From a virus, in IMG/VR virus record IMGVR_UViG_3300044911_001183, positions 1 to 33,655 of that record: a stretch of DNA of 33,655 nt. One strand, 5' to 3'. Positions within the stretch are counted from its first letter, which is position 1; the number at the start of each line of letters is the position of its first letter. Positions 3,946 through 25,458 of the stretch are shown one piece after another. The position numbers and the translations under genes are program-made. The notes beneath the pieces were generated by a model that worked only from the letters and a program-made list of their open reading frames with translations, ran no database searches and was not told the DNA's origin.

Positions 3946-3951
3946 CAACCA

Positions 3952-3981
3952 CCGCCCCATGCCGGAAACGGCACGGGGCGG
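3952..3981 (+). ncRNA. GC-rich hairpin capped by GAAA (hairpin family member)
   Basis: Positions 3952-3964 pair with 3969-3981 over 13 positions with one A-C mismatch, closed by a GAAA tetraloop at 3965-3968. There is no T-run after it, so it is not a standard intrinsic terminator. It fills the 77-nt gap between the genes at 3646 and 4023. It resembles the other GNRA-capped intergenic hairpins here in loop and position but lacks their CTCACC/GGTTT frame. Confidence 0.55.
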
Positions 3982-4022
3982 ATTACCGGAACCACGCACG
4001 ATCCGGCGTGCAGGAGACGAAC

Positions 4023-4289
4023 ATGAAACTCACGATTTCAGCACACGACTGCACCGACGCGAATGGTAATGCGGTCGGGTACATTGGGGCAGAAGACCGC
4101 AGGGGCTGGTTCTTCTCATGGGGAATGGCGGAGCCTCCGATTCGTGCGGTTATCACGAACGGCTGGCTCTCCAAGGATGAGAAGGCCCGCATCATCGCCA
4201 GCCTTGAAATCGAACAAGAAACCGGAGTACGTGGATTTGCACGGGCAACGGCGGAACGTGTGTTGCGTTCGTACCTTGCCAAGCGTTGA
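4023..4289 (+). CDS. unknown small early protein
   Basis: The 88-residue product starts at ATG 4023, with AGGAGA 5 nt upstream. It has an N-terminal part rich in Gly and aromatics (GYIGAEDRRGWFFSWGM) and a helical, charged C-terminal half. I see no motif that names a family. It stands downstream of the hairpin at 3952 and 11 nt before the next gene, so it is part of the early operon. The open frame extends upstream to about 3876 but without a ribosome site. Confidence 0.6.
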   Translation: MKLTISAHDCTDANGNAVGYIGAEDRRGWFFSWGMAEPPIRAVITNGWLSKDEKARIIASLEIEQETGVRGFARATAERVLRSYLAKR

Positions 4290-4300
4290 TAGGAGACACC

Positions 4301-4618
4301 ATGCAACTGCTTTCACAAGCACTCATTCAGGAAATGACCGACGCGATGAACGCGGCTGAAGAAGACCTGCTCAACGGTGCGTCCGCATACGACGACTGCG
4401 AAGACGACGACCGCCGCAAAGTCGAAGTGTTCGGTGCGATTCTGAAAGATCCAACCGCTGCCGCTGTCAAGTCGCATGCGTTTGCGGTCGAATGGATTGC
4501 CGACCTGCTCGAAGACACAGCGAACCGGGCACAGCACTTCGGACGCGGGGATAGGCCGTATGACCACCACGCGGCAATCGTGAAGGATTACAAGCGAATC
4601 ACCAAGGAGACACCATGA
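4301..4618 (+). CDS. unknown small acidic early protein
   Basis: The 105-residue protein begins at ATG 4301 after AGGAGA with a 4-nt spacer. It is helical and acidic in the first half (NAAEEDLLNG, DDCEDDDRRK) with a His-rich end. Acidic small early proteins can be DNA mimics or inhibitors of host enzymes, but nothing here proves it. Its stop overlaps the next ATG (ATGA), so translation of the two genes is probably coupled. Confidence 0.6.
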   Translation: MQLLSQALIQEMTDAMNAAEEDLLNGASAYDDCEDDDRRKVEVFGAILKDPTAAAVKSHAFAVEWIADLLEDTANRAQHFGRGDRPYDHHAAIVKDYKRITKETP

Positions 4619-4839
4619 AGATTGCACCAGAACACGAAGCGGCGGTCAACGGTTTTGCGGACAAGGCAGAGGCGATCCGCAAGCTCGTTGCCGAACTTTC
4701 GCGGCAGATAACCGACCACATCACGACCATCGACCGCGAACAAGGCGACACGATGGACTTGTTCTACGAACTGTCTGACCGCTCTCGGCAGGCGGCGTAT
4801 TGGCTTGGACGCATCAACGACGAACGCAGAATTCTCTGA
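4615..4839 (+). CDS. unknown small helical early protein
   Basis: This 74-residue product starts at ATG 4615, overlapping the previous stop by 4 nt, with AAGGAGA just upstream. It is almost entirely helical and charged, with a heptad-like pattern in the first half (AEAIRKLVAELSRQI), so a short coiled coil is likely. No family is recognised. A structured hairpin begins 7 nt after the stop. Confidence 0.6.
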   Translation: MKIAPEHEAAVNGFADKAEAIRKLVAELSRQITDHITTIDREQGDTMDLFYELSDRSRQAAYWLGRINDERRIL

Positions 4840-4845
4840 CTCCTC

Positions 4846-4878
4846 ACCCGTCGCGTGCGGAAACAATCGCGGCGTGGT
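4846..4878 (+). ncRNA. repeated structured element, copy 1
   Basis: ACCCGTCGCG at 4846-4855 pairs with CGCGGCGTGGT at 4868-4878 with one bulged T and one T-G wobble; the loop contains GGAAAC. The sequence before it is CTCCTC and after it is TT, giving the CTCNCACC...GGTTT frame shared with copies at 5178 and 25426. The ATG of the next gene follows 2 nt later with no Shine-Dalgarno sequence between, so the element may govern that start. Confidence 0.6.
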
Positions 4879-4880
4879 TT

Positions 4881-5144
4881 ATGCAAATCTTCCCCATCAT
4901 CGTTGCGTCGGTATGCCTGATGCTGGCCCCGCCGCTTACCCCGACCTACTCCAGTTGCTTCGAAGCGTTCTTGGCGACTCTCAACCAGATCAACACGCTC
5001 GATTCGCATGGGCTCATCACCCACGAAACGGCACGCACGCGGCGACTGCAAGCCATTGCCGACTACCAGCAATGCAAACGCGATGCGTTCCGTGCCTGGC
5101 TGCGTGAACGAATCCGCACGAACCCGGAGCGGATCTACGACTGA
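4881..5144 (+). CDS. small exported or membrane-anchored protein
   Basis: From ATG 4881 the gene encodes 87 residues. The first 20 or so (MQIFPIIVASVCLMLAPPL) form a hydrophobic segment like a signal peptide or membrane anchor, followed by a helical charged body with Arg-rich end. There is no ribosome site before the ATG; the hairpin at 4846-4878 abuts it. The frame is open further upstream to about 4800, but that would remove the signal-like N-terminus. No family is recognised. Confidence 0.5.
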   Translation: MQIFPIIVASVCLMLAPPLTPTYSSCFEAFLATLNQINTLDSHGLITHETARTRRLQAIADYQQCKRDAFRAWLRERIRTNPERIYD

Positions 5145-5177
5145 CACACACTCGGGGCTTGTGGCTCCGGCTCTCTC

Positions 5178-5210
5178 ACCCGTCGCGGGCCGGAAGGTAC
5201 GCGGCGTGGT
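5178..5210 (+). ncRNA. repeated structured element, copy 2
   Basis: The same arms as copy 1 (ACCCGTCGCG at 5178-5187, CGCGGCGTGGT at 5200-5210) flank a different loop that can form C5190-G5197 and C5191-G5196 around GGAA, a GNRA tetraloop. Upstream is CTCTC, downstream TTTC. It lies in the 228-nt gap 5145-5372 with no start codon close by. Between copy 2 and copy 3 there is only a T-rich stretch at about 5228-5271 with no supported gene. Confidence 0.6.
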
Positions 5211-5296
5211 TTCGGCGGATCGCATCGTGTTTTTGCTCCTGTTTCAAACGTGTTGCGTTTTTACTAGCGGCCAGCGAGCCGTGCCGAGAATCGCAT

Positions 5297-5325
5297 CTCC
5301 CGTACGTCGAAAGGCGTGCGGCGAG
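5297..5325 (+). ncRNA. repeated structured element, copy 3 (changed pairs)
   Basis: CTCCCGTACG at 5297-5306 pairs with CGTGCGGCGAG at 5315-5325 with one bulged G, and T5307-G5314 and C5308-G5313 close a GAAA tetraloop. Bulge position, wobble and length match copies 1 and 2, while several base pairs are replaced by other base pairs, which supports structure and not mere sequence repetition. It is followed by GTTTC, then a short dyad and the start of the gene at 5373. Confidence 0.55.
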
Positions 5326-5334
5326 GTTTCAACT

Positions 5335-5351
5335 GTCAAGATTCACTTGAC
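5335..5351. promoter_or_regulatory. short dyad GTCAAG-N5-CTTGAC
   Basis: A perfect 6-bp inverted repeat lies 22 nt before ATG 5373 and just before the AAGGAG site. It may be a protein site or a weak hairpin that limits access to the ribosome site. The right arm with the next T also reads TTGACT, but no -10 box is visible at the right distance. Confidence 0.35.
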
Positions 5352-5372
5352 TGTTCACAAAGGAGCCTTGCG

Positions 5373-5609
5373 ATGGACGATAGATTCGACGGCGGCTGTC
5401 CTGCGGACGTTGGCACTGACACGAAGGCGGAGGCTGATCCGTTCATGGACACCGTGAAGCGGTACGGAGACAACCGGGCAAGCCTTGGATTTGCGGAAGG
5501 GTACAACCACGCGGCCCGCATGTTGATCGACACGCACCCGGAGGCGGCATTGGTTCTGATCGACTCGTTCCATGCGGAAGTCGCCAAGCGTGACGAGAAG
5601 CCCGCTTGA
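5373..5609 (+). CDS. unknown small acidic protein
   Basis: The 78-residue product starts at ATG 5373 after AAAGGAG with an 8-nt spacer. It is acidic at the N-terminus and helical in the rest (GFAEGYNHAARMLIDTHPEAALVLIDSFHAEVA). No catalytic or metal motif is evident. It is preceded by a structured leader and followed by an operator-like site, so it appears to stand as its own small unit in the early block. Confidence 0.6.
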   Translation: MDDRFDGGCPADVGTDTKAEADPFMDTVKRYGDNRASLGFAEGYNHAARMLIDTHPEAALVLIDSFHAEVAKRDEKPA

Positions 5610-5614
5610 CTTCT

Positions 5615-5634
5615 ACGGGACGAAAGCGTACCGT
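5615..5634. promoter_or_regulatory. operator-like palindrome, site 3 (one mismatch)
   Basis: ACGGGA-N8-TACCGT differs at one base from the ACGGTA-N8-TACCGT consensus of sites at 3580 and 12218. TTGACT at 5606-5611 lies just upstream as a good -35 hexamer, and the right half-site falls where a -10 would be. It precedes the zinc-ribbon gene at 5653. Confidence 0.5.
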
Positions 5635-5652
5635 CCTGCAAGGAGATTCACC

Positions 5653-5823
5653 ATGTGCCAATGCAGAACCGTTGAACGCAGAACGCCAATCGAAGACCGC
5701 GACTCGCACAAGTGCGACAAGTGCGGCAAGCGGATGAGCCATGAGCCAGACGACCCGGATACGGGCGTGAGCGAGTGCGTCTGGTACTGTGCCGCGTGTG
5801 ACGACGCAGCCGACAGCGAATAA
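5653..5823 (+). CDS. small zinc-ribbon protein
   Basis: This 56-residue protein starts at ATG 5653 after AAGGAG with a 7-nt spacer. It has Cys pairs C2-C4, CDKC at about residues 22-25, and CVWYCAAC at about 42-49, the spacing of a treble-clef or zinc-ribbon. Between them is an acidic stretch (DDPDTG). Such mini-proteins are common in phage early regions, and the function is unknown. Operator-like site 3 just upstream suggests separate control. Confidence 0.65.
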   Translation: MCQCRTVERRTPIEDRDSHKCDKCGKRMSHEPDDPDTGVSECVWYCAACDDAADSE

Positions 5824-5830
5824 CAAACAC

Positions 5831-5892
5831 GACCGCCAGGCTAACGCTGAAGCGGTCATTTCGGCGGCGTTCACTGCTGGTGCGGTTGAACG
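5831..5892 (+). promoter_or_regulatory. two leader hairpins before the recombination operon
   Basis: GACCGC-CAG at 5831-5839 pairs with CTG-aa-GCGGTC ending at 5857, followed by ATTTC. CGTTCA at 5868-5873 pairs with TGAACG at 5887-5892. Together with the terminator-like stem at 5902-5938 these give three consecutive hairpins in the 134-nt gap before the ERF gene. Confidence 0.45.
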
Positions 5893-5901
5893 TTGTTAAG
5901 A

Positions 5902-5944
5902 GCCGCCGCGTGTCGCCGTGCCTTGTTGGTGCGGCGGCGTTTTT
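5902..5944 (+). terminator. intrinsic terminator or attenuator before ERF gene
   Basis: GCCGCCGC at 5902-5909 pairs perfectly with GCGGCGGC at 5931-5938 and is followed by a five-T run at 5940-5944. The ribosome site GAGGAG of the next gene begins immediately after. A terminator placed directly before a start site, in the same direction as the gene, is the arrangement of an attenuator or of a terminator that antitermination must pass. The 21-nt loop makes it weaker than a compact terminator. Confidence 0.55.
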
Positions 5945-5957
5945 GAGGAGCAATCGA

Positions 5958-12915: not shown

Positions 12916-13628
12916 TCTACCTGATGGCGAATCACACGAGCGTCTGGAAGCTCCGCAAGAGCGGAAACAACATGGGGTGGCTCATCGGGTGCGACGGGTG
13001 GAAGCGTCCGGTGCGTGAAGGCCACGATCCAATGCCTTACGCACTTGACAACGGGATGTATTTCAAGTTTGGCGACCAACCGCACGGCCCAGCCAGGTTG
13101 TGCGAGTTCTTTGGGAGGTGTGGCAAGGCGATGGAGTTTCACGCACCGCTGTTTGCTGTGGTGCCGGACATGCCATACGACGCGGTCGAGACTTGCAAGC
13201 GGTACACATGCTGGATCAAGCGATGCCGGGAATTAGCACCGGATTGGAGATGGGGCATTGCCGTGCAGGACGGCATGGTGCCAGCAGACATTGAGCGGCT
13301 TGGGCTTGGTGTGTTCCCGAAGCACGACGCGGTATGCGTGGGAGGTTCGAGCGAGTGGAAGGATGCGAACATCAGAACGTGGGCGGCGTGGTGCCGCGAG
13401 CGTGGAGTCTGGTGCCACGTTCTCCGCGTGAATGACACGAAGCGTTTGGAGCTGTGTCAGGACGAGGGGGTGGACAGCGTAGACGGTACGGGGTTGTTTC
13501 CGGGGAGATCAGCAACAGAGGAAGCGTGTGATGTGGAGCCTGCGGCAAGGGTGCTTGTGGGGTGGATGAGTGACGGAAACGGATGCAAAGTACCAATCTA
13601 CGACGCGGCCACCAAGGAGCAGCCATGA
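12912..13628 (+). CDS. TGT/DpdA-like base-exchange (7-deazaguanine transglycosylase) family protein
   Basis: This 238-residue protein carries blocks typical of tRNA-guanine transglycosylase-like TIM barrels found in phages: ALDNG at 44-48, FAVVPDMP at 81-88, WGIAVQDGM at 114-122, AVCVGGSSEWK at 140-150, VNDTKRL at 173-179 and DSVDGTG at 188-194. The conserved Asp residues in VPD, VQD and DSVD are candidates for catalysis. DpdA-type enzymes insert 7-deazaguanine bases into DNA in place of guanine. No genes for making the base (FolE, QueD, QueE or QueC-like) were recognised here, so it would have to use host precursor. It could instead act on RNA. The family call is from motif memory, not a search. 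Confidence 0.6.
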   Translation: MIYLMANHTSVWKLRKSGNNMGWLIGCDGWKRPVREGHDPMPYALDNGMYFKFGDQPHGPARLCEFFGRCGKAMEFHAPLFAVVPDMPYDAVETCKRYTCWIKRCRELAPDWRWGIAVQDGMVPADIERLGLGVFPKHDAVCVGGSSEWKDANIRTWAAWCRERGVWCHVLRVNDTKRLELCQDEGVDSVDGTGLFPGRSATEEACDVEPAARVLVGWMSDGNGCKVPIYDAATKEQP

Positions 13629-13684
13629 AAGACGCAGCAGCGAAGATCAACCAGGCGAAGCGGCCAAGCCGCAAGCGGAAGTGA
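13625..13684 (+). CDS. 19-residue basic peptide, possible UGA readthrough to 13777
   Basis: ATG 13625 (AAGGAG 6 nt upstream, overlapping the preceding TGA) opens a 19-residue, Lys/Arg-rich peptide ending at TGA 13682-13684. In the same frame after this stop, translation continues for 30 sense codons (RGIDHKNLRAKDWGYSTPEA and on to EGGNA) to a second TGA at 13775-13777. The stop is followed by C, a context known to favour UGA readthrough. The continued frame looks like normal phage protein and fills the 89-nt gap before the next gene. It may be a 50-residue protein made by readthrough, a gene broken by a point mutation, or chance. Confidence 0.45.
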   Translation: MKDAAAKINQAKRPSRKRK

Positions 13685-13773
13685 CGTGGAATCGACCACA
13701 AGAACCTGCGGGCGAAGGATTGGGGCTACAGCACACCCGAGGCGGCGAAAGCCGCGATGGAAGGAGGCAACGC

Positions 13774-14175
13774 GTGAGTGTTGCACTTGATAGGCTGGTG
13801 GCGGAGCGTGTGTTCGGGTGGACCGTCGTTGCGTCATCAGACGGCGAGCCGATCTGGTCAAACGACTGCGGCACGCCGCTTGCGTTCCAGTACGCATCGG
13901 CACCAGTGAAGTTTGGCCCGAACTTTTCAACCGAAATTGCGGCAGCGTGGGAGGTTGTCGAGCATCTGCGGAAGCAGACCAAGGACGACGGCACGCGGAA
14001 GTGGTTGGTTTCAATCATCGACAAAGAAGACGGATTATGGGAATGCGTAATCTATGAAATCGGCATGTATGACGTTGCGTGGGAAGAACATGCATCGCCA
14101 GCGATGGCAATCTGCATTGCGGCACTTCGATTGAACAACGTTCCCGAGGCGACCATTCAGGAGGCGTGCAAGTGA
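13774..14175 (+). CDS. phage ABA-sandwich domain protein
   Basis: The 133-residue protein starts with LDRLVAERVFGW and has FSTEIAAAWEVVEHL and ASPAMAICIAALRL, the three hallmark blocks of the phage ABA-sandwich (BC1872-like) family. The fold is known, the function is not. The chosen start is GTG 13774 with AAGGAGG 5 nt upstream; the frame is open further but lacks a site. The stop overlaps the next GTG (GTGA). Confidence 0.8.
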   Translation: MSVALDRLVAERVFGWTVVASSDGEPIWSNDCGTPLAFQYASAPVKFGPNFSTEIAAAWEVVEHLRKQTKDDGTRKWLVSIIDKEDGLWECVIYEIGMYDVAWEEHASPAMAICIAALRLNNVPEATIQEACK

Positions 14176-15145: not shown

Positions 15146-15246
15146 TCTATCTCGCAATCATCGTCGCCGCAATCCTCGCGGCGTTTGGAATCGTTCTGCG
15201 GATCGAGCATGCACTTCAGATGCACGACGACGAAAGGCGGGCGTGA
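15142..15246 (+). CDS. 34-residue membrane peptide
   Basis: ATG 15142 overlaps the previous stop (ATGA) and the stop at 15244-15246 shares a base with the next ATG (TGATG). The peptide is one hydrophobic helix (MIYLAIIVAAILAAFGIVL) with a short charged tail. Tight coupling on both sides supports it as a real gene despite its length. Confidence 0.6.
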   Translation: MIYLAIIVAAILAAFGIVLRIEHALQMHDDERRA

Positions 15247-15569
15247 TGGGCAAGGCTGAGAACGCCGTCACAAAGTCCGTGCGTCAGGCATGCCAACTTC
15301 GCGGGGCGATGGTGGTACGTGTGCAGGCTGGTTCCCACATGGTCGGCAAGCATTTCGTACGAGGTGCGGAGGCTGGCACGGCGGACCTGATCGGCTCGTA
15401 CATGGGCCGTGCAATCGCTCTGGAAGTCAAGACCGCCAAGGGCAAACAGCAGCCGTCGCAAGTGGAATGGGCCGCACAATGGAACGAAGCGGGCGGGTGG
15501 TATTTCGTGGTGCGGTCGGCGGAAGATACGCTGGCCGCGTTGGATGAAGTCAAGAAAGGGGCCACATGA
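15246..15569 (+). CDS. VRR-NUC domain nuclease
   Basis: The 107-residue protein matches the VRR-NUC branch of PD-(D/E)xK nucleases: GTADLIG with D47, ALEVKT with E60-x-K62, Q72 in QPSQVEW, and GGWYFVV near the end. Phage VRR-NUC proteins are thought to act as structure-specific or Holliday-junction nucleases. ATG 15246 is chosen for its coupling to the upstream stop and correct family length. It is followed by a TGA/ATG overlap. Confidence 0.88.
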   Translation: MGKAENAVTKSVRQACQLRGAMVVRVQAGSHMVGKHFVRGAEAGTADLIGSYMGRAIALEVKTAKGKQQPSQVEWAAQWNEAGGWYFVVRSAEDTLAALDEVKKGAT

Positions 15570-15946
15570 TCCCACCACCCATCGCATCCTACATGGACCG
15601 TCGCCGCGTGCTGCTCATCGGAGGGGATTGCAGGCCCGACCAGCTCTCACGGCTTACCGAAGCCTTCCCGCACTCAACAATCGAATGGGTGCCGACCAGC
15701 GAACGCAACACGCGGACCAGCACGTATCGGGCAATCGTGGAGCGGTTCAGGCCCGGCCTGCTCGTCTGTATCTTCGGCCTGCTGCGAACGCAGGCGACCA
15801 AGGAACTGCGGGCCATATGCTCATCAAACGGCATCCCGATGGCCTACGTCAAACGTCCCACACCGATGGCGATTGTCGCTGCGGTGCAACACTCACGGGC
15901 ACACACAGAGGAGGCACATGCCACGCATAGCAGCCTACAGCGGTGA
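15566..15946 (+). CDS. DUF2325-like protein
   Basis: The 126-residue protein has VLLIGGDCRPDQLSRLTEAF at about residues 15-34, RPGLLVCIFGLLRTQATKEL at about 62-81, and CSSNGIPMAYVKRPTPMAIVAAV at about 84-106, the order of hydrophobic strands and small loops seen in DUF2325 proteins. The fold is probably a Rossmann-like half domain; the function is unknown. The assignment is tentative. It overlaps the next gene by 29 nt. Confidence 0.6.
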   Translation: MIPPPIASYMDRRRVLLIGGDCRPDQLSRLTEAFPHSTIEWVPTSERNTRTSTYRAIVERFRPGLLVCIFGLLRTQATKELRAICSSNGIPMAYVKRPTPMAIVAAVQHSRAHTEEAHATHSSLQR

Positions 15947-16238
15947 TCGGTCATTCGTACCGTCGCCGCAATCGCAGATCATCCACAAGGATCTTCCGGC
16001 ACACCTTGAACGCTTGGAAGGTGTCAAGCAGAACGCCAAGCGGGTTCTGGCGTTGAAGCCGAACGCCAAGGTGTTGGTGAACATGAACAGCGGACCCGTG
16101 GAGGCCGTGCTGGTTCAGGCGTACGCATGGCGGGCGGATCAGTCGGTAGTCGTCGCCGTGGTCAGGTACGAATCCGGCAAGGTCGGAAAGGTCGAAGGTA
16201 GCCGCGTGCTGGAAATCAGAACGAAGGGGAAGAAATGA
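15918..16238 (+). CDS. unknown basic protein
   Basis: This 106-residue product starts at ATG 15918 with GAGGAGG 4 nt upstream, inside the end of the previous gene. It is basic, with a likely small beta domain (AKVLVNMNSGPVEAVLVQAYAW, VVVAVVRYESGKVGKVEGSRV) and a Lys-rich end. A nucleic-acid-binding barrel is possible but not shown. The stop overlaps the next ATG. Confidence 0.55.
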   Translation: MPRIAAYSGDRSFVPSPQSQIIHKDLPAHLERLEGVKQNAKRVLALKPNAKVLVNMNSGPVEAVLVQAYAWRADQSVVVAVVRYESGKVGKVEGSRVLEIRTKGKK

Positions 16239-16432
16239 GCGAGGCAGCATTGGTCATCTGTTGGATCGTGTCGGTAGTTGTGGCGTTGCTGGCCGGGTAC
16301 ATCACCGGCTCATGCGTGGTCGGGCGTGTGCTGGCTAATGCGATCTTCTACCGGCGGCAGCGGACGAACATCGAAGGTGCCAAGGTTCTCGATCAGTTGG
16401 TTGAGGATCTTGGACGCAAGGGGGCGAAATGA
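16235..16432 (+). CDS. small membrane protein
   Basis: The 65-residue protein has a membrane helix at about residues 4-31 (LVICWIVSVVVALLAGYITGS) and a basic tail. ATG 16235 overlaps the previous stop and follows AGGGGAAG. It is one of several tiny membrane proteins in this block; no family is recognised. Confidence 0.6.
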   Translation: MSEAALVICWIVSVVVALLAGYITGSCVVGRVLANAIFYRRQRTNIEGAKVLDQLVEDLGRKGAK

Positions 16433-16524
16433 CCACATGGCAATACGTCGCACTCGCGGAACTGCTGCTGCTCGTCGCGGCGGCTGTGGTGTGGGTTCGA
16501 ATGAAAGGAGCGGAACGTGACTGA
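16429..16524 (+). CDS. 31-residue membrane peptide
   Basis: ATG 16429 overlaps the previous stop (ATGA). The peptide has one hydrophobic helix (YVALAELLLLVAAAVVWV) and a charged end. Its last codons contain the AAAGGAG site of the next gene, and the two overlap by 8 nt. The coupling supports it as a gene. Confidence 0.55.
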   Translation: MTTWQYVALAELLLLVAAAVVWVRMKGAERD

Positions 16525-16714
16525 ACTAGGAGACAACTTCACGCCGCGAACCGTTGAGGTTCCGGCCACCAGCATCGAAACCGTGTCGGCACTCCCGACC
16601 GACTCGCACGAGGTTCCCGGCTTCACCGTGATCGACCTCACGTACCCATCTTGGGAAGACGTATGCGGATCGTTGGCACCGATCAGGCCCGAGGATGTGC
16701 ATTTGATCGTCTGA
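16517..16714 (+). CDS. unknown small protein
   Basis: The 65-residue protein starts at GTG 16517, 6 nt after AAAGGAG. It is acidic and soluble-looking, rich in Pro, Thr and Val (TPRTVEVPATSIETVSALP), and ends in PEDVHLIV. No motif is visible. It is the last gene before a short gap with a promoter candidate at 16711-16740. Confidence 0.55.
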   Translation: MTELGDNFTPRTVEVPATSIETVSALPTDSHEVPGFTVIDLTYPSWEDVCGSLAPIRPEDVHLIV

Positions 16715-16740
16715 CCAGCTAGGGCCACGGTCGGTATACT
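16711..16740 (+). promoter_or_regulatory. candidate promoter giving a leaderless transcript
   Basis: CTGACC at 16711-16716 and TATACT at 16735-16740 are separated by 18 nt. The expected transcription start falls at or within a base or two of the A of ATG 16747. No ribosome site is present in the gap, so the following gene would be read from a leaderless message. Confidence 0.45.
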
Positions 16741-16746
16741 TGTGGC

Positions 16747-17496
16747 ATGAAGCACAAGGGCAACACACAGTACGTAGCGGCGGCATTGGCCTTGTGCTGT
16801 GCCGCCGCTTTCATTAGCGGGTGCCGGTCAAACCCGCTACGGCACGCCGCACCTTCCAGCCTACCCCAAGCCGCCGAAACCACCGGGCAGGCCGCTACGG
16901 TCGTCAGGGAGGCCGCAAACAGCATCGGGGAGGCAAACGCGGAGATTCAGGCGGCGGTGCCGGAAGTCGCCCCCCAAACCAGCCAGATTGCGGCGGGGGT
17001 GGACCGGCTGCGGGCGGTTGAGGAATCGCTCAGTCAGACCAAGACCGCACTTGCGATTGAGGCGGTACAAGCCAAGGAAACCGCTGCCGCGTTGACCAAG
17101 GCCAACGCCCGTATCGCCCAGCTCGAGGACAAGGCCAACGGCCTGCTCAACACCATCCTCATCGGTGCCAGCATCGCGGGACTCGCCCTGGCTGTCGTTT
17201 CCGGCATCTGGCTTCGCTCATGGCAAGGGGTTGTCACCGGGCTCGGCATCTTCGCCGCGTGTGCCGCTGGAATGTGGATCATCCAGTACCGGGCCTACGT
17301 TGCCATTGGCGGGCTTCTGGTGGCGGGGGCCTACGCCGCGTGGTGCATCATCACCGAACGCCGGGCAAGCACTCAGATCGTCGCTACGGTCGAAGCGATC
17401 AAGGGCCATGTTCCCGACTTCAAGAACATGGCGAATACCATCCAAACCAGCAAGACCACCCGCCGCATCGTGGACAAGATCAAGGGGACTGCATGA
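16747..17496 (+). CDS. lipoprotein with coiled coil and three membrane helices
   Basis: The 249-residue protein has a lipoprotein-type signal (hydrophobic to residue 22, then ISGC with Cys26 as the lipid site), a long helical, Ala/Gln/Glu-rich periplasmic-type coiled coil (about 40-132), and three membrane segments at about 133-156, 159-179 and 182-203, then a basic tail. The mix of lipobox and C-terminal membrane spans suggests a protein that bridges two membranes. It sits just before the packaging genes, where lysis genes often lie, so a spanin- or holin-like role is a reasonable guess. Its stop overlaps the next ATG. Confidence 0.65.
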   Translation: MKHKGNTQYVAAALALCCAAAFISGCRSNPLRHAAPSSLPQAAETTGQAATVVREAANSIGEANAEIQAAVPEVAPQTSQIAAGVDRLRAVEESLSQTKTALAIEAVQAKETAAALTKANARIAQLEDKANGLLNTILIGASIAGLALAVVSGIWLRSWQGVVTGLGIFAACAAGMWIIQYRAYVAIGGLLVAGAYAAWCIITERRASTQIVATVEAIKGHVPDFKNMANTIQTSKTTRRIVDKIKGTA

Positions 17497-17810
17497 GTAC
17501 GCTCGACACCGGACACCACATCACCCCGTCAGACCCCATCACGGCCCGCATGTCCGCAGGCGAGTGGTGGAAGGTCATTTCCCTGATCGTGGGAACGGCC
17601 ATAACCGGGGCGATCTACGTCACGAACATGCAGGGGTCAATCGCGGACGCGACACGCGAGGCGAAAGACGCGGCCAGGGACGCAGCCAAGGCTCTCGACC
17701 AGTCAAACGCCGTCAAGGCCGAACTTCAGGGGGCACTCGTCGCCCTGTCCAGCAAACTCGGACGTATCGAGGGTCTTTTGGAGCGGCTGACGCAGGAGCC
17801 TCGCAAGTGA
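17493..17810 (+). CDS. membrane coiled-coil protein, holin-like candidate
   Basis: The 105-residue product from ATG 17493 has one membrane segment at about residues 25-44 (WWKVISLIVGTAITGAIYV) and a C-terminal coiled coil (ATREAKDAARDAAKALDQ... LSSKLGRIEGLLERL). Size and topology match many phage membrane proteins placed in lysis cassettes. A holin role is inferred from neighbours only. The stop overlaps the next GTG (GTGA). Confidence 0.6.
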   Translation: MSTLDTGHHITPSDPITARMSAGEWWKVISLIVGTAITGAIYVTNMQGSIADATREAKDAARDAAKALDQSNAVKAELQGALVALSSKLGRIEGLLERLTQEPRK

Positions 17811-18022
17811 CCGTGATAGCGTTACTTATCGCACTCGTCACACCCGCCAAGTGGTACCGTTGGCAGTTGCCCGTCAACACGGGCGACACCTGCTGGTCCG
17901 CTCATCTGGTCAGGCTGCATGAGTGTGCGGTTCAACACCCGGACGCAACTAGCATCCAGCGGGCGGTCTGTGAGGCATCATCGCGGGGGCAGTACACGGC
18001 TTGCATCGAGGGCATTCCATGA
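17807..18022 (+). CDS. small exported Cys-containing protein
   Basis: From GTG 17807 the 71-residue product starts with a short hydrophobic segment (MTVIALLIALVTPA) like a signal peptide, then a mature part with four cysteines (TCW, ECA, VCEA, ACIEG) that could form two disulfides. It overlaps the terminase-block gene after it by 4 nt. An o-spanin-like or periplasmic lysis helper is possible, but there is no lipobox. Function unknown. Confidence 0.5.
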   Translation: MTVIALLIALVTPAKWYRWQLPVNTGDTCWSAHLVRLHECAVQHPDATSIQRAVCEASSRGQYTACIEGIP

Positions 18023-18522
18023 GCGACACGAACAACACCCAACCACTCGACCACTGGTCTAGCGACGATCTGGAGGCCGACGCGGACGCAGGCCCCAAGC
18101 AACAGGCACCACATGCCGCACAAGAATGGAGTTCTTGTACGCAGGCAAAATCGGATTTTCAAGCGGAACCGCCGACTACAAGCGTAGTTCCTACAGTTTC
18201 CGGGGGTCAGGGGCAAGATTCCGGCATTCTGGCAGATCCGGGGCACGCGGCTCAGGATGCGAAACTGGTACGCCGGGCGATCCGCAACGGGTGGAACGTG
18301 CCTGATTCCGCCAAGCCCCGCATCGTCGGTCGGCTCGTCACCATCGTTGACCAGTCGCCGGATGACGGGGACGCGATCAAGGCCGCGAGCGTTCTGCGGT
18401 CGATGGACGCACAGGACCAGGATCTTGCGATCAAGGAACACGAACTGGAACGCATCGACTCCGGGAAGGCGACGCAGGCGGTGCAGTTGTACGGGCGTGA
18501 GGCCCCAATCGACGCGGTATGA
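18019..18522 (+). CDS. probable small terminase subunit
   Basis: The 167-residue protein has a disordered acidic first half and a helical second half (AKLVRRAIRNGWNVPDSAKPRIVGRLVTIV ... AIKAASVLRSMDAQDQDLAIKEHELERI). It ends 3 nt before the large terminase, the usual place for the DNA-recognition subunit of the packaging motor. Sequence alone does not show a clear helix-turn-helix. ATG 18019 overlaps the previous stop. Confidence 0.6.
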   Translation: MSDTNNTQPLDHWSSDDLEADADAGPKQQAPHAAQEWSSCTQAKSDFQAEPPTTSVVPTVSGGQGQDSGILADPGHAAQDAKLVRRAIRNGWNVPDSAKPRIVGRLVTIVDQSPDDGDAIKAASVLRSMDAQDQDLAIKEHELERIDSGKATQAVQLYGREAPIDAV

Positions 18523-18525
18523 CGC

Positions 18526-19917
18526 ATGGCGACACCCAAGCACAAGCCCGCAGCCTACAACCCGTACGGGGCCGTGCGTGAGGTGTGGCTGTCGCGTGCC
18601 CCGGAGGTGCTGATACCTGGCGGGGCAGGAACGGGCAAGACCCGTGGTGTGCTGGAGAAACTGCACCTGTTCCTGCTGAAGTACCCCGGCACCCGTGGCC
18701 TGATCGTCCGCAAGACCCGTGCAAGCATGACGGAATCCGTGCTGGTCACGTACGAATCCCACGTGGCTCTGGCTGGCGTGACGGTCGGCACCAACCTACG
18801 CCGGACCCGTTCGGCCTACGAGTACAGCAACGGCAGTACGCTGGTGGTTGGCGGCATGGACAACGCCGACCGCATCATGTCCACGGAATACGACATCATC
18901 GCGGTATTCGAAGCCACCGAACTGAGCGAGGATGATCTGGAGAAACTGACGACCCGCCTCCGCAACGGGCGGGGGCCGTACCACCAGCTCATAGCGGACT
19001 GCAACCCTGCGGCCCCGTCACACTGGCTGAAACGCCGGGCGGATCGTGGGGCTATGGCCGTGTTTCATTCGACCCACAAGGACAACCCCCGCCTATGGAA
19101 CGGCACCGCATGGACACCCGAGGGGCAGCGGTATCTCGCGTCGCTGGGAAGCCTGACCGGCCACCGCCGAGCCCGCCTGCTGGACGGCAAATGGGCCGCG
19201 TCCGAGGGTTTGGTCTACCCCGAGTTTGACGCGTCGGTACACGTGCTGGACCGCATGCCCGAGGGTTGGGAATCGTGGCGCCGCATCAGGTCCATGGACT
19301 TCGGCTTCGTCCATCCCTTCGTGTGCCAATGGTGGGCAATCGACGGGGACGGGCGGATGTACTTGTACCGTGAGGTCTACCGGGCCAAACGGACCACCGA
19401 CGAGCATGCCAGCCAGATCAACGAACTGTCGAAGGGGGAACGCTATGACGCGACCGTTACCGACCACGACCCCGACGTACGCGGCATCCTCGCCAAAGCC
19501 GGAATCCAAAGCGTGCTTGCTGAGAAGAACCACGGGGCAGGCCGCGATGCGGTCCACGCTCGTCTGCGTGTACAGGGTGACGGCAAACCGAGGCTATTCG
19601 TCCTCGCTGGTTGTACGCATGAAGTAGACGGCGACCTGTACGAACGCAAGCGGCCGACTAGCACGCTGGCCGAGTTTGACAGCTACGTATACCCACCAGG
19701 CCGCGACGGGAAAGCCGAGAAGGAAGAACCCGTCAAAGAGTGCGACGACGGCATGGACGCGATGCGTTACGCGGTGATGTGGCTGGACTCTCCGAACAAG
19801 GGCTACGGGGCGTGGTCTGGTGGATCTGCGAAAGAACCGGAGCCGTCCGCTAAGGTGCCAACGATGGATCGTGATACACTTGCCCGACGCGACCTCGTAC
19901 ACAGGATGTTTGCATGA
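18526..19917 (+). CDS. terL: large terminase subunit (ATPase and nuclease)
   Basis: The 463-residue protein has the packaging motor motifs: Walker A GGAGTGKT at 32-39, Walker B DIIAVFEA at 122-130 with Glu129, coupling motif ADCNP at 157-161, and the RNase H-like nuclease acidic residues D258 (RSMDFGF), D313 (VTDHDPD) and the DDGMDAMRY group at 407-413. It pumps DNA into the prohead and cuts the concatemer. Length is normal. The stop overlaps the portal ATG. With the closed-map evidence, a headful-type enzyme fits, but the subtype is not proved. Confidence 0.95.
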   Translation: MATPKHKPAAYNPYGAVREVWLSRAPEVLIPGGAGTGKTRGVLEKLHLFLLKYPGTRGLIVRKTRASMTESVLVTYESHVALAGVTVGTNLRRTRSAYEYSNGSTLVVGGMDNADRIMSTEYDIIAVFEATELSEDDLEKLTTRLRNGRGPYHQLIADCNPAAPSHWLKRRADRGAMAVFHSTHKDNPRLWNGTAWTPEGQRYLASLGSLTGHRRARLLDGKWAASEGLVYPEFDASVHVLDRMPEGWESWRRIRSMDFGFVHPFVCQWWAIDGDGRMYLYREVYRAKRTTDEHASQINELSKGERYDATVTDHDPDVRGILAKAGIQSVLAEKNHGAGRDAVHARLRVQGDGKPRLFVLAGCTHEVDGDLYERKRPTSTLAEFDSYVYPPGRDGKAEKEEPVKECDDGMDAMRYAVMWLDSPNKGYGAWSGGSAKEPEPSAKVPTMDRDTLARRDLVHRMFA

Positions 19918-22646
19918 CGGCCAAGAAACCCACGATCAAGCAGCAAGGCCAACCCGCAATGCGTGGCGTGAAGGCCGTTGAGCCGTACGACGACCGCCCG
20001 TTGAACGCCGGGTGGGTGTCCGCGTCTGTGATTCAAGGCGAGGACGCATCGAGCCGCTACAACAACAACACGGGCCGCGACTTCGAGTTGGTCGCACGGG
20101 CCCGACTTGGTACGCCTGCTCATGCGTGTGGAATCCTTGCCAACGTGTGCAGCTCGCAGACGCTGCGGCTCTATCGCCGTGCGGCCCGTGGTGCCAAGCG
20201 GTACGCCTCGCGTGCTGTGACCGACCGCAAGACGCTGAAGTATCTTCGCGGCGACGGCGAGGTACGCCCGACCGCGTGCAAGGGAGCGAACTACGCCAGC
20301 AAGGCGGGCGACGGCATCGAGGAAGTGCTGGATAGCCCGATCCTGTCGGTGCTTCAGAACCCGGACCCCGTGTATTGCGGGCAGTTGTGGATGAAGTTGC
20401 TCTGGTGGCAGCGTGAGGCGTGCGGGCGTTCGTACATCTGGGCGGGCGACCGCGTGGGCGGCATCCCGACGAGTCTGTACCTGCTGCCGAGTGCGTACAC
20501 GTGGCCCGTCAAGTCACGCACCGGGCTCATCTCTGAGTTCATCTACGCCCGTAATCGCTCGGACATGTTCCACGCATCGACCGACGATGTGGTGTACATC
20601 CGGTCCATGCCCGATCCGTTCGACCCGGTGGGTGCGTTGTCGTGGCTCCAGAGCGTGACCGCCGAGGCCGACATGGAAGCGGCGGCACTGACCGCAGAAG
20701 TCGCACGATGGAACAACGGTGGGCATCCCGGCATGGTCTTCAAGGCTGGGGCACAGAACGACAATACCCAGATGATGCAGATGCGGTCGGCACTGGAGAA
20801 CCAGATTCGCGGCGTAGGCAAGGCGGGGAACTTCCTGCTGTTGCGTGACACGGAACTGGTGCAGTACGCCACCAAGCCCCATGAGATGCAGTACATTCAG
20901 GGCATGGAGGCGACACAGAAGCGGATCTACGACGCGGCGGGAATCCCCGAACCGATCTATCGCCTCAACTCTGCGAACCTCGCGAGTGCGACCGTGGCCG
21001 ATGCGATGTTTGCGAAGTTGTCCATCGCCCCGCGTCTGGCGACAATGGCGAGCGAGTTGACCGAGGGCCTGCTGCCGCTGTTTGGCGTTGAGCCTGGCGA
21101 AATGTGGTTCAGCTACGACAACCCCGTGCGGGACGATGTGGTACTGCTCGCGGCGGAACTGCGTGCGGCTGAGTTGCAGGGCATCATCTACCCCAACGAG
21201 TACCGGCACATTCTCGACCTTGAAGCCCTGCCGGATGAAATGAACGTGCTTCGGTTCCGCCAGACCGAGGCACCGCCCCCGATGTTCGACCCGTTCAGCG
21301 TGCCAGCGAAGGTGTCGCCCGCTGCCGAAGCGGAGATGGAAGACGACACGGAAGAAAACGCACCAGACGAGGAAGACGATGCCGAAGGAAACACAGACGA
21401 CACCGTAACCAAGTCCGTAACGACCAAGGCCGACTCCTACGAACCCACCGACAGCATGGCCGAGGAAGCACAGCGGGGGCTCGATTGGCGGGAGGAGTTT
21501 GGACGCGGCGGTACTGAGATTGGCGTAGCCCGTGCCCGTGACATCAGCAACAAACGCGGCCTGTCGCTGGACACCGTGTACCGCATGGCATCGTACTTCG
21601 CCCGTCACGAGGTGGACAAGCAGGGGCAGGGCTGGTCGCCGGATCAGGACGGATACCCGTCTGCCGGTCGCATCGCATGGGCCTTGTGGGGCGGCGATCC
21701 GGGGCGTACGTGGGCTGAGAAGATCGTCAAGCAGGTTGAAAGCGATGATGACACCGATCCGAGCCCGTCCGGCGGAAAGTCCGTTGGCTCGTCAGTTGGA
21801 GCGTGCGAATGCGTATCTTGCGGCAAGGGAGGGAGTGCGGTTCTCAAGTCTGCCAATGACACCGCAGCGGCTGGTGGCGATCATGGATCAGCGGACGTTC
21901 GAACGGATGGTCACGGACGGGACGGCATCGAACTGAAGGCGATGGGCGAATGGGACGAAGACGCGAACGTGCCCAAGTCAACGGTGCGGATCTTCAACGA
22001 GTTTGCGAACAAGATGAACACGTGGTATATGACCGTCATTCCGTCGATGGTGAATGACACCGCAGGCGTGGACCCGCCGACCGTCAAGCAGATGCAGGAC
22101 TTCACGAACATCACGGATGACTTCATCGCCAAGACTTTGCAGAACGGGGCGGCGGTCGGTATCGCACAGATCCCCGGTGCAACGGCGGACACGTTCAACA
22201 CGGCCAATGAACCGGCCATGCAGTACATCCGCGACCGTGGACTCGAGTTGGCTATCAGCGTGCCCGAAACGCTGGTCGGCACCGTGCAGGCCGCAATCGA
22301 GAAGGAACTGGCGGACGGCACCAGCACGGGCCAGATGCGGGACGCGATTGCGAAGGCGGCACCAGAACTGAGCGGCTATCAGGCCGAACGCATCGCCCGC
22401 ACGGAAACCACGAACGCCTTCAACCAAGGGGCGTTGCAATCGTGGAAAGAGGCGGGCGTGCAGGGCAAGCGATGGATTCTGGCGGGCGGTCCATGCCCCG
22501 AATGCGAAGGGCTCGCGGCGAAGTACCCCGGACCGATTCCGATTGACGACCTGTTCGAATACGGCGGGGTCGCGGTAGAGCATCCCGTACTGCACCCGAA
22601 CTGCCGCTGTAGCTACGTCCCTGTTTTGGAGATGCCCAATGAGTAA
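19914..22646 (+). CDS. portal protein fused to a MuF-like head morphogenesis domain
   Basis: One uninterrupted frame of 910 residues has three parts. Residues about 40-440 look like an HK97/SPP1-type portal (SPILSVLQNPDPVYCGQLWMKLL region, then MQYIQGMEATQKRIYDAAGIPEPIYR). An acidic linker (EDDTEENAPDEEDDAEGNTDD) leads to a domain at about 513-605 (GGTEIGVARARDI, YFARHEVDKQGQGW, SAGRIAWALWGGDPG) often seen in phage head proteins. Residues about 680-905 form a Mu gpF-like domain (AERIARTETTNAFNQGAL, CPECEGLAAKYPG, HPNCRCSYVPV). Residues 611-675 read poorly, while another frame there is open and looks coding (21745-21936). MuF could also start alone at ATG 21942, 5 nt after that frame's stop. 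So the product may be a true fusion or two proteins. Confidence 0.85.
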   Translation: MTAKKPTIKQQGQPAMRGVKAVEPYDDRPLNAGWVSASVIQGEDASSRYNNNTGRDFELVARARLGTPAHACGILANVCSSQTLRLYRRAARGAKRYASRAVTDRKTLKYLRGDGEVRPTACKGANYASKAGDGIEEVLDSPILSVLQNPDPVYCGQLWMKLLWWQREACGRSYIWAGDRVGGIPTSLYLLPSAYTWPVKSRTGLISEFIYARNRSDMFHASTDDVVYIRSMPDPFDPVGALSWLQSVTAEADMEAAALTAEVARWNNGGHPGMVFKAGAQNDNTQMMQMRSALENQIRGVGKAGNFLLLRDTELVQYATKPHEMQYIQGMEATQKRIYDAAGIPEPIYRLNSANLASATVADAMFAKLSIAPRLATMASELTEGLLPLFGVEPGEMWFSYDNPVRDDVVLLAAELRAAELQGIIYPNEYRHILDLEALPDEMNVLRFRQTEAPPPMFDPFSVPAKVSPAAEAEMEDDTEENAPDEEDDAEGNTDDTVTKSVTTKADSYEPTDSMAEEAQRGLDWREEFGRGGTEIGVARARDISNKRGLSLDTVYRMASYFARHEVDKQGQGWSPDQDGYPSAGRIAWALWGGDPGRTWAEKIVKQVESDDDTDPSPSGGKSVGSSVGACECVSCGKGGSAVLKSANDTAAAGGDHGSADVRTDGHGRDGIELKAMGEWDEDANVPKSTVRIFNEFANKMNTWYMTVIPSMVNDTAGVDPPTVKQMQDFTNITDDFIAKTLQNGAAVGIAQIPGATADTFNTANEPAMQYIRDRGLELAISVPETLVGTVQAAIEKELADGTSTGQMRDAIAKAAPELSGYQAERIARTETTNAFNQGALQSWKEAGVQGKRWILAGGPCPECEGLAAKYPGPIPIDDLFEYGGVAVEHPVLHPNCRCSYVPVLEMPNE
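21745..21936 (+). CDS. nested overlapping open frame within the portal/MuF gene
   Basis: In the +1 frame relative to the portal gene, ATG 21745 opens 63 codons that end at TGA 21934-21936. The peptide (LARQLERANAYLAAREGVRF, then MTPQRLVAIMDQRTFERMV) has normal amino-acid balance and uses CGG, CGT, GCG, ACG and TTC codons like the neighbouring genes, while the portal frame here has scattered Ser/Gly/Cys. It could be a separate small gene, the C-terminus of the portal reached by a +1 frameshift, or chance. The stop lies 5 nt before a possible MuF start at 21942. There is no strong ribosome site. Confidence 0.45.
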   Translation: MMTPIRARPAESPLARQLERANAYLAAREGVRFSSLPMTPQRLVAIMDQRTFERMVTDGTASN

Positions 22647-23343
22647 CGAAAACCCCATCATCCACAAGATCCGCCGCCGTGCGGCTGACTTCCGGTCGAT
22701 GAGCGATCCGGCCAACCCCATCGGCCTGCTGTCGGCCCCGTGGGGGGCACACCGCAAGAGCCTGATTCGCAAGGCGGACGTTGCCAACGGGCGACCACTC
22801 GAGATTGTGGCGTACGCCAATACGTCGGCGGTCGATCTGGAGCGGGAGGTAGTGGTGCCGAGCGGCGGCGATGTGCGTTCGTACCTGACGACGAACGGCA
22901 ATCTGTTCGTGGATCACCAGTACGACATGGAACACGTGGTAGCCAAGTGCCTTCGCATGGCGTTGGACCCTACCGGCTGGCTCTGCACCGGGCAGTTCTT
23001 CCGTGGGTTCGAGACGGAGTACACCAAGGCATGCCTGGCGTTGGCAATGGCCGGGACGCTGGCAATGTCCATCGGGTTCGAGGCTCTGGATTGGGGCGAC
23101 CCGTCGCAAGAGGAACAGCGGCTGTATCCGGGCATCGAGAGCATCGTTCGCCGGTGGAAGGCTCTGGAGGTGTCGTACACGGCCCTGCCGATGAACGTGA
23201 CCTGCCGCCAAGTATCGACGAACCTCGCGGCTGCGGAAGTGGTAGCCGAGAAGTCACGCAAAGCCCTGATCGACGCTCACGTTTCCGCCGATGTGGTCAA
23301 GCGGTTCGGAATCAAGCCCAAGCGGATTCTGATCCTGACCTGA
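22639..23343 (+). CDS. HK97-type prohead protease
   Basis: The 234-residue protein follows the U35/S78 protease pattern: PLEIVAYANTSAVDLEREVVVP at about 54-74, the catalytic His in LFVDHQYD (H93), Ser in LAMSIGFEALDW (S144), and LEVSYTALPMN with the acidic E177. It cleaves the scaffolding part of the capsid protein during head maturation. ATG 22639 overlaps the previous stop by 8 nt. It stands directly before the capsid gene, as usual. Confidence 0.88.
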   Translation: MSNENPIIHKIRRRAADFRSMSDPANPIGLLSAPWGAHRKSLIRKADVANGRPLEIVAYANTSAVDLEREVVVPSGGDVRSYLTTNGNLFVDHQYDMEHVVAKCLRMALDPTGWLCTGQFFRGFETEYTKACLALAMAGTLAMSIGFEALDWGDPSQEEQRLYPGIESIVRRWKALEVSYTALPMNVTCRQVSTNLAAAEVVAEKSRKALIDAHVSADVVKRFGIKPKRILILT

Positions 23344-23532
23344 TAACGTGGGTACAATGTGGGGCATTGTCTCCTCCCCGGCACGTTGAGAAACACGCTC
23401 ACATGCCGGGTTCAACCGAATAGACCCTGCGACTCGCAGAGACTCGGGAACGCTCGCCGCGTCGGCCACCGTTCACCCACTCTCCAGCATGAGCAGAGAT
23501 ACACCAAACCCGCAAGGGAAGGAATCTCTGTT
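23344..23532 (+). promoter_or_regulatory. structured leader of the capsid gene
   Basis: This 189-nt gap carries several signals. TACAAT at 23353-23358 is a -10-like box without a clear -35. ACAATG 23354-23359 and CATTGT 23365-23370 form a 6-bp dyad over it. CCCGGCA 23377-23383 pairs with TGCCGGG 23404-23410 around an inner GTT-GAGA-AAC hairpin (GNRA loop), preceded by CTCCT and followed by TT. CTGCG-ACT-CGCAG lies at 23427-23439. The ribosome site GGAAGGA is about 10 nt before ATG 23533. A dedicated promoter and stable leader would raise capsid output. Confidence 0.5.
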
Positions 23533-24897
23533 ATGAATCGCAAGTCACTGATCACGCTCCTGAAGGCCAACGGCTACGCCGAGGCCGTCCCCACTCTCGA
23601 AACCGTCAAGTCGCATGTCACCAAGCTCGCCGCCGAAGGCGTTGAAATCAACGGCAGCGACGGCAACCCCATCAACGTCGATGCGGTATGGTCGGCCAAG
23701 TCTGTGCTGACCCTCGCTGACGACGATGCCGACACCGCACTGAGCGAGTCTCAGCGGAAGTCGATCATCGCTGATGCGAAGGGCAAGGACAGCCCGCATG
23801 CTGACGACGAAGTTAGCAACCGCAGCCCCAGCCGATTCACCATCGGCAATGCGGCACGCAAGGCGTATGAACGCAAGATCCGCGACGGCAAGTCTGTGTT
23901 CGCCGACCCCGATCAGGCCGAGGGATACGCCGCGTGGGTTCGCTTGCAGGCTGCCGGTCATCACCACTACACCCAGAAGACGGCGGACATCGAGATTTGC
24001 AAGAAGAACCAGGTTGAGTTCAACCAGCAGCTTGGCGGGGCTCTCGTCCCGCAGGTGTTTGTTCCCCAGTTGATCTGGCTCACCGAGCAGTACGGTGCAG
24101 GCCCCCGGCTTGCCAACGTGGTTCCGATGGGTTCGGAGTCTGCCGCGTACCCCCGTAAGACGGGCATTACGGCCATGACCCCGATGGGCGAAGGCTCGAC
24201 GATGTCCGTGACGACCAACAGCTACGGCAACGTGACGCTGACGGCGAAGGAATACGGCGTGCTGATGAGCTACAGCAACTCGCTGTTCAACGATGCCGCA
24301 GTCAACGTGGCCGACGACATCGCCAACACGATGGCAGAAGCCAAGGCAATCGCCGTGGACAATGCGTACTTCCTTGGTGACGGCACCAGCACATACGCCG
24401 GACAGGTCGGCCTGACTGCCGCACTCCCCAGTGGTGCGTACATCAACGGCTCCGGCAACTCGTGGTCGGCAATCACCAAGGACGACTTCACCTCAATCAT
24501 GGGTGCGGTCCAGAACATCAACGCTGCCCGCCTCAGCTTCACGTGCAGCCGTCAGTTCTTCGTGCAGGTGATGATGCGTCTGGACAAGGCTACCAGCCAG
24601 TTCAAGGACATCACCTCTGGCAACCTTGGCGGCGGAACGTTCATGGGCTACCCGGTGCAGTTCGCTCAGGTCATGCCCATCACTTCGGCGAGTGCAAGCC
24701 GCGTGTGCTACTTTGGTGACTTCACTGGCGGCAGCATGATCGGCGACCGTCAGGATCTGACGATTGCCACCAGCGAGCAGTTCCTGTTCAACACCAACAG
24801 CGTGGCGGTTCGTGGCGTGGCTCGGTTCAATGTGAACATCCACGGCGACGGTCGCGGCTCGACTGTTGGACCCATCGCCGCACTCGTCACGACCTGA
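23533..24897 (+). CDS. major capsid protein, HK97 fold
   Basis: The 454-residue protein has an N-terminal helical, charged section (about 1-130) that would serve as a scaffolding delta domain, then the HK97-type body: QLGGALVPQVFVPQLIWLTEQYGAGPRLANVVPM, LTAKEYGVLMSYSNSLFNDAAVNVADDI, and a late FLFNTNSVAVRGVARFNV strand. It follows the protease and its structured leader. Start ATG 23533 is chosen because the upstream open frame crosses the hairpins and lacks a ribosome site. Confidence 0.92.
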   Translation: MNRKSLITLLKANGYAEAVPTLETVKSHVTKLAAEGVEINGSDGNPINVDAVWSAKSVLTLADDDADTALSESQRKSIIADAKGKDSPHADDEVSNRSPSRFTIGNAARKAYERKIRDGKSVFADPDQAEGYAAWVRLQAAGHHHYTQKTADIEICKKNQVEFNQQLGGALVPQVFVPQLIWLTEQYGAGPRLANVVPMGSESAAYPRKTGITAMTPMGEGSTMSVTTNSYGNVTLTAKEYGVLMSYSNSLFNDAAVNVADDIANTMAEAKAIAVDNAYFLGDGTSTYAGQVGLTAALPSGAYINGSGNSWSAITKDDFTSIMGAVQNINAARLSFTCSRQFFVQVMMRLDKATSQFKDITSGNLGGGTFMGYPVQFAQVMPITSASASRVCYFGDFTGGSMIGDRQDLTIATSEQFLFNTNSVAVRGVARFNVNIHGDGRGSTVGPIAALVTT

Positions 24898-24927
24898 TAG
24901 ACCAACAACCACAAAGGAACCTGACAC

Positions 24928-25407
24928 ATGAAAACCCTTCTCAACGCATACTTCAAGGGCGGCACCTCAACGGGTGGCCCTCTTGACATCAACGGCACGA
25001 CCAACACGGGCACCGCGTTCGATACGTCCGTTCTCGGCGGGCTCGGTGAAGCCGCGTGCATCGTGACCTTCGGCAACGTCGCCGCTGACACGACCGCACT
25101 GAAGATCGAAGAATCCAACGACAACTCCGCGTGGGTCGATGTGACCGGCGGCGGGTTCACTTCGACTGCTCTGCCCGCTGCTACTGGTGGCGACAACAAG
25201 CAGTGGCTGTTCCACGTTGAACTCGGCGGTTCACGCCGTCGCTACCTCCGTGTGACTTGCACCGCAGGTGCGGCAGCAACCCTCTACGGTGCGGTGTGGA
25301 TCGGCCTCAACCCGGCTCAGGGTGTGAACGGCTCTACCGAAGTTGCCCGTGGTGCGGCTCAGAACCTCGGCAACAGCTCGTCGCTCCTCGGTCGCATCGT
25401 GCTGTAA
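24928..25407 (+). CDS. probable capsid decoration or stabilisation protein
   Basis: The 159-residue protein is beta-rich and Gly/Thr/Ala-rich (FDTSVLGGLGEAACIVTFGNVAADTTALKIEESNDNSAWVDV) and stands 30 nt after the capsid gene, the common place for decoration proteins. Its leader CAAAGGAACCTGACACATG is the same as that at 1415-1435. No named family is certain; an Ig-like or jelly-roll fold is inferred. Confidence 0.65.
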   Translation: MKTLLNAYFKGGTSTGGPLDINGTTNTGTAFDTSVLGGLGEAACIVTFGNVAADTTALKIEESNDNSAWVDVTGGGFTSTALPAATGGDNKQWLFHVELGGSRRRYLRVTCTAGAAATLYGAVWIGLNPAQGVNGSTEVARGAAQNLGNSSSLLGRIVL

Positions 25408-25425
25408 TCCTCCCCTGTTTCTCTC

Positions 25426-25458
25426 ACCCCCGGCTCATGGAAACGTGGGCCGGTTGGT
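25426..25458 (+). ncRNA. repeated structured element, copy 4
   Basis: CCGGCTCATG at 25430-25439 pairs over 10 bp (two G-T wobbles) with CGTGGGCCGG at 25444-25453 around a GAAA tetraloop, and ACC 25426-25428 pairs with GGT 25456-25458 across a small internal loop. The flanks are CTCTC and TTTC, matching copies 1 and 2 although the stem sequence differs. It stands in the 71-nt gap between two structural genes, 17 nt before the AAGGAG site region of the gene at 25479. Confidence 0.65.

Follow-up and report, generated by a model that had tools for sequence, protein, structure and literature searches.

A 33-nt intercistronic hairpin repeated across an uncultured phage genome looks like a new RNA control element

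Introduction

Short, GC-rich hairpins with GNRA-type loops recur between the genes of a phage genome deposited as an IMG/VR virus record, and they raise the question of whether they are copies of a single functional RNA and, if so, what that RNA would do for the messages that carry it. An earlier note made from the sequence had grouped six such hairpins into one family, said to fill the intergenic gaps. Support at the RNA level is rare for repeated cis elements spread through a phage genome; in the present case the RNA fold, the geometry and the sites are all clear, and most of the six hairpins fall into one sharply defined class.

Results

Genome context

The window, by which we mean the whole stretch of DNA analysed (33,655 bp, 60.8% GC), holds its predicted genes on the plus strand according to gene calls made in the present analysis. 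Early genes encoding ERF, YqaJ exonuclease, helicase and methylase occupy 5.9-11.3 kb, and the terminase, portal, protease, major capsid and tail genes are found from 18.5 kb on, again on the plus strand. Positions 1-1449 are repeated at 32207-33655 with 70 differences, and relatives continue from ~31748 directly to ~1419 of the window. The record therefore probably covers a genome of ~32.2 kb and then overlaps its own start, the overlap showing strain variation. TerL matches among phage records stay below 48% identity, and those in genomes are distant (40-44% identity) and yield no host assignment; a covariance-model search of two genomes with a distant TerL gave no match, a negative that carries no information.

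Five copies of one hairpin geometry

We scanned the window for 21 hairpin geometries, combining stems of 8-14 rungs with bulges of 0-2 nt. A stem of 11 rungs with a 1-nt bulge is the sole geometry with matches, five on the plus strand and none on the minus strand, and 299 of 300 dinucleotide-Markov simulated windows contain no match at all, the remaining one containing a single match. The five matches are copies of one 33-nt hairpin that reads, 5' to 3', ACC, 11 rungs, a GNNA tetraloop, 11 rungs, one bulged nucleotide and GGU, with UU immediately after; the base is therefore a 3-bp clamp (ACC/GGU) separated from the 11-rung stem by a 1-nt bulge on the 3' side. The covariance model R1, run on the window with filters off and trained on these same window copies, returns all five at E-values of 3e-12 to 4e-17, and the next best match lies at 0.38.

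The first copy, H1 (4846-4878; GAAA loop; 57.3 bits with R1), is placed 6 nt behind the stop codon of gene 4615-4839 and 2 nt ahead of the ATG at 4881, which has no Shine-Dalgarno (SD) sequence. H2 (5178-5210; GGAA loop; 59.2 bits) and H3 (5295-5327; GAAA loop; 50.9 bits), the latter with ATC as a variant of ACC, stand in tandem within the 228-nt gap behind gene 4881-5144, H3 lying upstream of the SD and ATG of gene 5373-5609. H4 (7381-7413; GAAA loop; 45.9 bits), which the earlier note had missed, separates the YqaJ exonuclease gene from gene 7428-7652 and is followed by TTAAGGAG, with AAGGAG beginning 2 nt past the hairpin. H5 (25426-25458; GAAA loop; 61.2 bits) lies between a decoration-protein-like gene (24928-25407) and gene 25479-26021, with a stop codon 18 nt upstream and AAGGAG 7 nt downstream. 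All five are on the plus strand. The stems of H4 and H5 have little sequence in common with those of H1 and H2, and the geometry is kept.

Every copy examined in its context sits past the stop codon of one gene and ahead of the start of the next, and the downstream SD or AUG is usually within ~25 nt of the hairpin (~45 nt in the H2/H3 gap). The predicted folding energies range from about -15 to -27 kcal/mol. No consistent promoter was found upstream of the hairpins in the window. A pseudoknot in which the loop sequence GAAAC pairs with a GTTTC tail was considered and rejected, being lost in copies with GGAA or GACA loops.

These results redraw the six-member family proposed earlier. Hairpins do exist at all six sites, and R1 rejects their union: four belong to the 33-nt family (4846, 5178, 5295, given before as 5297, and 25426), one is a 13-rung hairpin at 3952, and one, at 23377, belongs to a capsid-gene leader as its P1 stem, the last two being described below. 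The bulge reported as a T is a genuine feature of the family, in which it may be T, A or C, and is absent at 3952. The loops, described as GNRA-type, are GAAA, GGAA, GCAA and GACA, the last of which widens the consensus to GNNA. Nor do the hairpins fill the intergenic gaps, since the family occupies only 4 of the ~15 gaps longer than 40 nt in our gene calls.

Selection acts on the plus-strand RNA

Because R1 was trained on window copies, we used as a fair test a second model, R2, built from the early-region copies only. R2 recovers the late copy (25426) with an E-value of 5e-5 and the corresponding copies of two relatives (L015 and L016) with 1.4e-6; the more diverged copies in L017, L014 and L018 reach only 0.01, 0.11 and 0.48, respectively.

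We aligned 19 copies from the window and its relatives within the same phage clade. Across this alignment 92.5% of cells are paired and 10 of the 14 pairs show changes on both sides. The covariation score is 0.694, compared with 0.228 for shuffled alignments and no more than 0.175 for slid partners, the copies being few and partly related, so that shuffles overstate the significance. When a candidate from contig L231 is added to the 19, G-U pairs fill 40 cells and A-C mismatches 3, an asymmetry indicating that it is the plus-strand RNA that is under selection. All 19 copies have the same outer A-U pair, the same base at either end of the loop and GGUUU, and the bulge and the stem sequence vary freely; the invariant positions amount to more constraint than stability alone requires. 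A plus-strand RNA fold of near-invariant geometry, intercistronic placement and conservation across the clade are thus established.

The earlier note had argued that a fold kept while its bases change marks a functional RNA, and had named covariation in relatives and a covariance-model search of related phages as checks. The argument is borne out by the compensatory changes, the G-U/A-C asymmetry and the cross-validated model. Its statement that no named RNA class fits also holds: Rfam (release 15) has no match to the window at E-values up to 1, and searches with H5, the capsid leader and the L153 hairpin region singly gave either nothing or chance matches far below gathering scores. With the literature negative covering the open PMC set, the 33-nt hairpin appears to be an RNA control element that is new and as yet without a name.

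Distribution in relatives and hairpin exchange at the H5 site

Family-pattern scans of viral contigs found members only in the phage clade of the window, other matches pairing at chance level. Contig L231, which has no known relationship to the clade, has a match to the 33-nt pattern at 313-365 in which 11 of 11 rungs pair, with a GTGA loop and a score of only 12.9 bits; whether this is a distant member or a chance match is doubtful. The 33-nt type is absent from the records of wider relatives, some of which are complete and others partial.

The tandem arrangement of H2 and H3 is also present in L153 and L078. A single hairpin takes its place in L151 (at 2822) and L240 (at 11170, reverse strand), and this hairpin is a chimera of the 5' half of H2 and the 3' half of H3, from which it follows that copies recombine.

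A hairpin is present at the H5 site, behind the decoration-protein gene, in each of the relatives examined, and its architecture differs by clade. L019 and L020 retain ACC/GGUUU around a different internal loop. In eight wider relatives (L380, L378, L366, L402, L416, L412, L150 and L146) the site is occupied by an unbulged 13-rung tetraloop hairpin. Behind it comes CUUC, UUUC, AUUC or CUU, leading into an AUG that, 3-4 nt past the hairpin, has no SD. The start encoded there, MASLISIAEYKVW, aligns with residue 1 of the window gene at 26032 (VAFLVSRTDYKSW).

The hairpin at the left end of the earlier series (3951-3984, plus strand) belongs by its shape to this 13-rung class, related to the 33-nt family and distinct from it. 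It has a GAAA loop and the tail GGATTACC and scores 10.7 bits with R1 (E 0.38); as 3952-3981, the span given earlier, it lacks a bulge and ends in GGATT. The changes it has undergone in L153 and L240 are uncompensated; among nine 13-rung hairpins that include it, 10 of 13 pairs covary, some of the nine having been picked for their pairing. Another unbulged 13-rung tetraloop hairpin is found in L189 (1116-1145).

A structured leader precedes the major capsid gene

The hairpin at 23377-23410 (plus strand) is likewise outside the 33-nt family (10.7 bits with R1, E 0.38). It forms P1 of a larger, ~185-nt leader RNA of the major capsid gene at 23351-23535 on the plus strand, which we delineated with a covariance model and per-sequence folds; RNAalifold performed poorly on the plain leader alignment, and these were used in its place. 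The leader runs from a promoter-like GGTACAAT through P1, TTCAACCGAATA and a stepped arm to a terminal stem around the SD before the ATG at 23533. TTCAACCGAATA is nearly invariant, CUGC/GCAG closes the stepped arm, and the terminal stem encloses the SD, its 3' strand adjoining the AUG.

A near-identical leader precedes capsid genes whose proteins share only 66-76% identity, and it is spread over a much wider phage group than the 33-nt family. The model R3, from which the window and its closest relatives had been left out, detects the window leader at E 4e-6 among 34 matches. Over 23 distinct sequences, both sides change in 28 of 35 pairs, with a score of 0.476 against 0.151, on an alignment adjusted to the structure; without such fitting, alignment A4 gives 11 of 35 pairs and 0.313 against 0.158. 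Rfam has no credible match for it. The capsid leader may be a separate candidate RNA family and may regulate translation of the capsid gene.

Discussion

What the five hairpins do has to be judged from their form and placement. The reading we favour, on which our confidence is evenly divided, is that all of them represent a single cis-acting mRNA element, placed between cistrons, whose shape a specific factor recognizes. A phage or host protein would read the hairpin by contacting the GNNA loop as well as the opposite end, where the ACC/GGUU base and the 3' bulge lie. Since 11 rungs make about one turn of A-form RNA, both ends would be presented on one face. Once bound or processed, the hairpin may act as punctuation of the message, giving the upstream cistron a stable 3' end or a barrier and the downstream cistron a fresh start. 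A role in processing or stability, in downstream translation, or in both would fit the intercistronic position. No named RNA-binding protein was found among the early genes searched, and when gene presence was compared with hairpin presence, the differences were too numerous for any one gene to be picked out as the partner. Wider relatives have the unbulged 13-rung type at the H5 site, so neither the bulge nor the 11-rung spacing is universal, and this weakens the argument for a single specific reader.

The strongest rival, somewhat unlikely in our judgement, dispenses with a specific factor: the stems would simply block exonucleases or separate the translation of neighbouring genes. GNRA-type caps do stabilize stems, the predicted energies are in keeping with such a role, and the H5 site keeps a hairpin while its type changes; a generic stabilizer leaves unexplained why ACC/GGUUU does not vary, why there is one bulge on the 3' side and why the length is exactly 33 nt. 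If the hairpins acted as partial terminators or attenuators, turning down the gene that follows (behind the capsid and decoration genes, for instance), this would account for a GC-rich stem with UUU directly behind it in a window where no canonical terminators stand out elsewhere. The tail, however, has just three U before C or A and no canonical U-tract, the conserved bulge three pairs above the base would weaken termination, and the corresponding tail in wider relatives leads directly into the AUG of head genes. As the earlier note had said, the stems lack T-runs: only one of the five, at 25430, passes even a lenient terminator scan, the matches to which in the window do not exceed chance. 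We consider termination quite improbable.

Two further readings we regard as very improbable. The lambda nut site combines boxA with a boxB hairpin, and a comparable antitermination signal for an N-like protein is brought to mind by the GNNA loops of all copies and by the CU-rich, CTCTC-like 5' flank of most. That flank is not constant, being missing in 3 of ~8 site classes (5295, 7381 and L153 9414); the hairpin is a tetraloop on 14 pairs, not a pentaloop on 5, and is repeated within operons just upstream of starts, and no N-like protein was found among the early genes searched. The other reading, in which the repeats matter as DNA, either as REP/IS200-like mobile hairpins or as recombination junctions, carries equally little weight. 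It draws on the recombination evident between the tandem H2/H3 of the window, L153 and L078 and the one chimera of L151 and L240, and is opposed by the 40:3 ratio of G-U to A-C, by the coding-strand, intercistronic location of all copies and by sites that are fixed across the clade. Each of these three readings (terminator, nut-like signal and DNA repeat) fails at least one tested feature.

An element read by one factor has partial precedents. In T7, RNase III processes several intercistronic hairpins per phage message and leaves stable ends; those sites are longer and have internal loops, and the likeness to the 33-nt hairpin is one of position. MS2-type operator and IRE-type hairpins present a bulge and a loop at a fixed distance to one protein, the MS2 operator being located at a start codon. 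The loop, the side of the bulge and the spacing all differ from the hairpin described here, the reader of which is inferred.

The closest published analogue is the set of SAS and ESAS repeats of Cluster K mycobacteriophages, short repeats of unknown function that occur just upstream of some gene starts (Pope et al. 2011, PMC3203893). They keep one orientation with few exceptions, and the same genes tend to keep them across relatives (PMC3203893). The 33-nt hairpins also lie near the starts of a gene subset and in one orientation. ESAS are imperfect inverted repeats with a spacer, whose arm departures do not support RNA pairing, and a DNA-binding role was favoured by the authors (PMC3203893); in the 33-nt hairpins, by contrast, RNA pairing is strongly supported. 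The 13-bp GGGATAGGAGCCC-type SAS repeat was not found in the flanks of any copy examined, and the 33-nt hairpin is not a member of that group.

A defined 33-nt element with natural variants makes the punctuation of almost gapless phage operons testable, and together with the structured capsid leader it suggests RNA control of head-gene expression in these uncultured phages. In a bolder version of the favoured reading, which we think unlikely, one factor would recognize hairpins of fixed length, in which a helical turn separates the bulge from the GNNA loop, at many sites between cistrons and perhaps also at P1 of the capsid leader, and would cut or re-set the message so that SD-less AUGs 2-4 nt behind the hairpin are translated. 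A cut at the 3' base of the hairpin could, speculatively, give translatable ends.

Two features suggest that the host translates mRNAs lacking a leader: SD-less starts directly behind hairpins, and promoter-like boxes that precede an AUG by 5-7 nt. A promoter-like GGTA(T/C)A(C/A)T box precedes both the capsid leader and the gene at 16747. In the window, GGTATACT lies 6 nt upstream of the ATG of gene 16747-17496 (16733-16749), and in four relatives GGTATACT or GGTACACT lies 5-7 nt upstream of an ATG; these boxes look like a promoter for leaderless messages.
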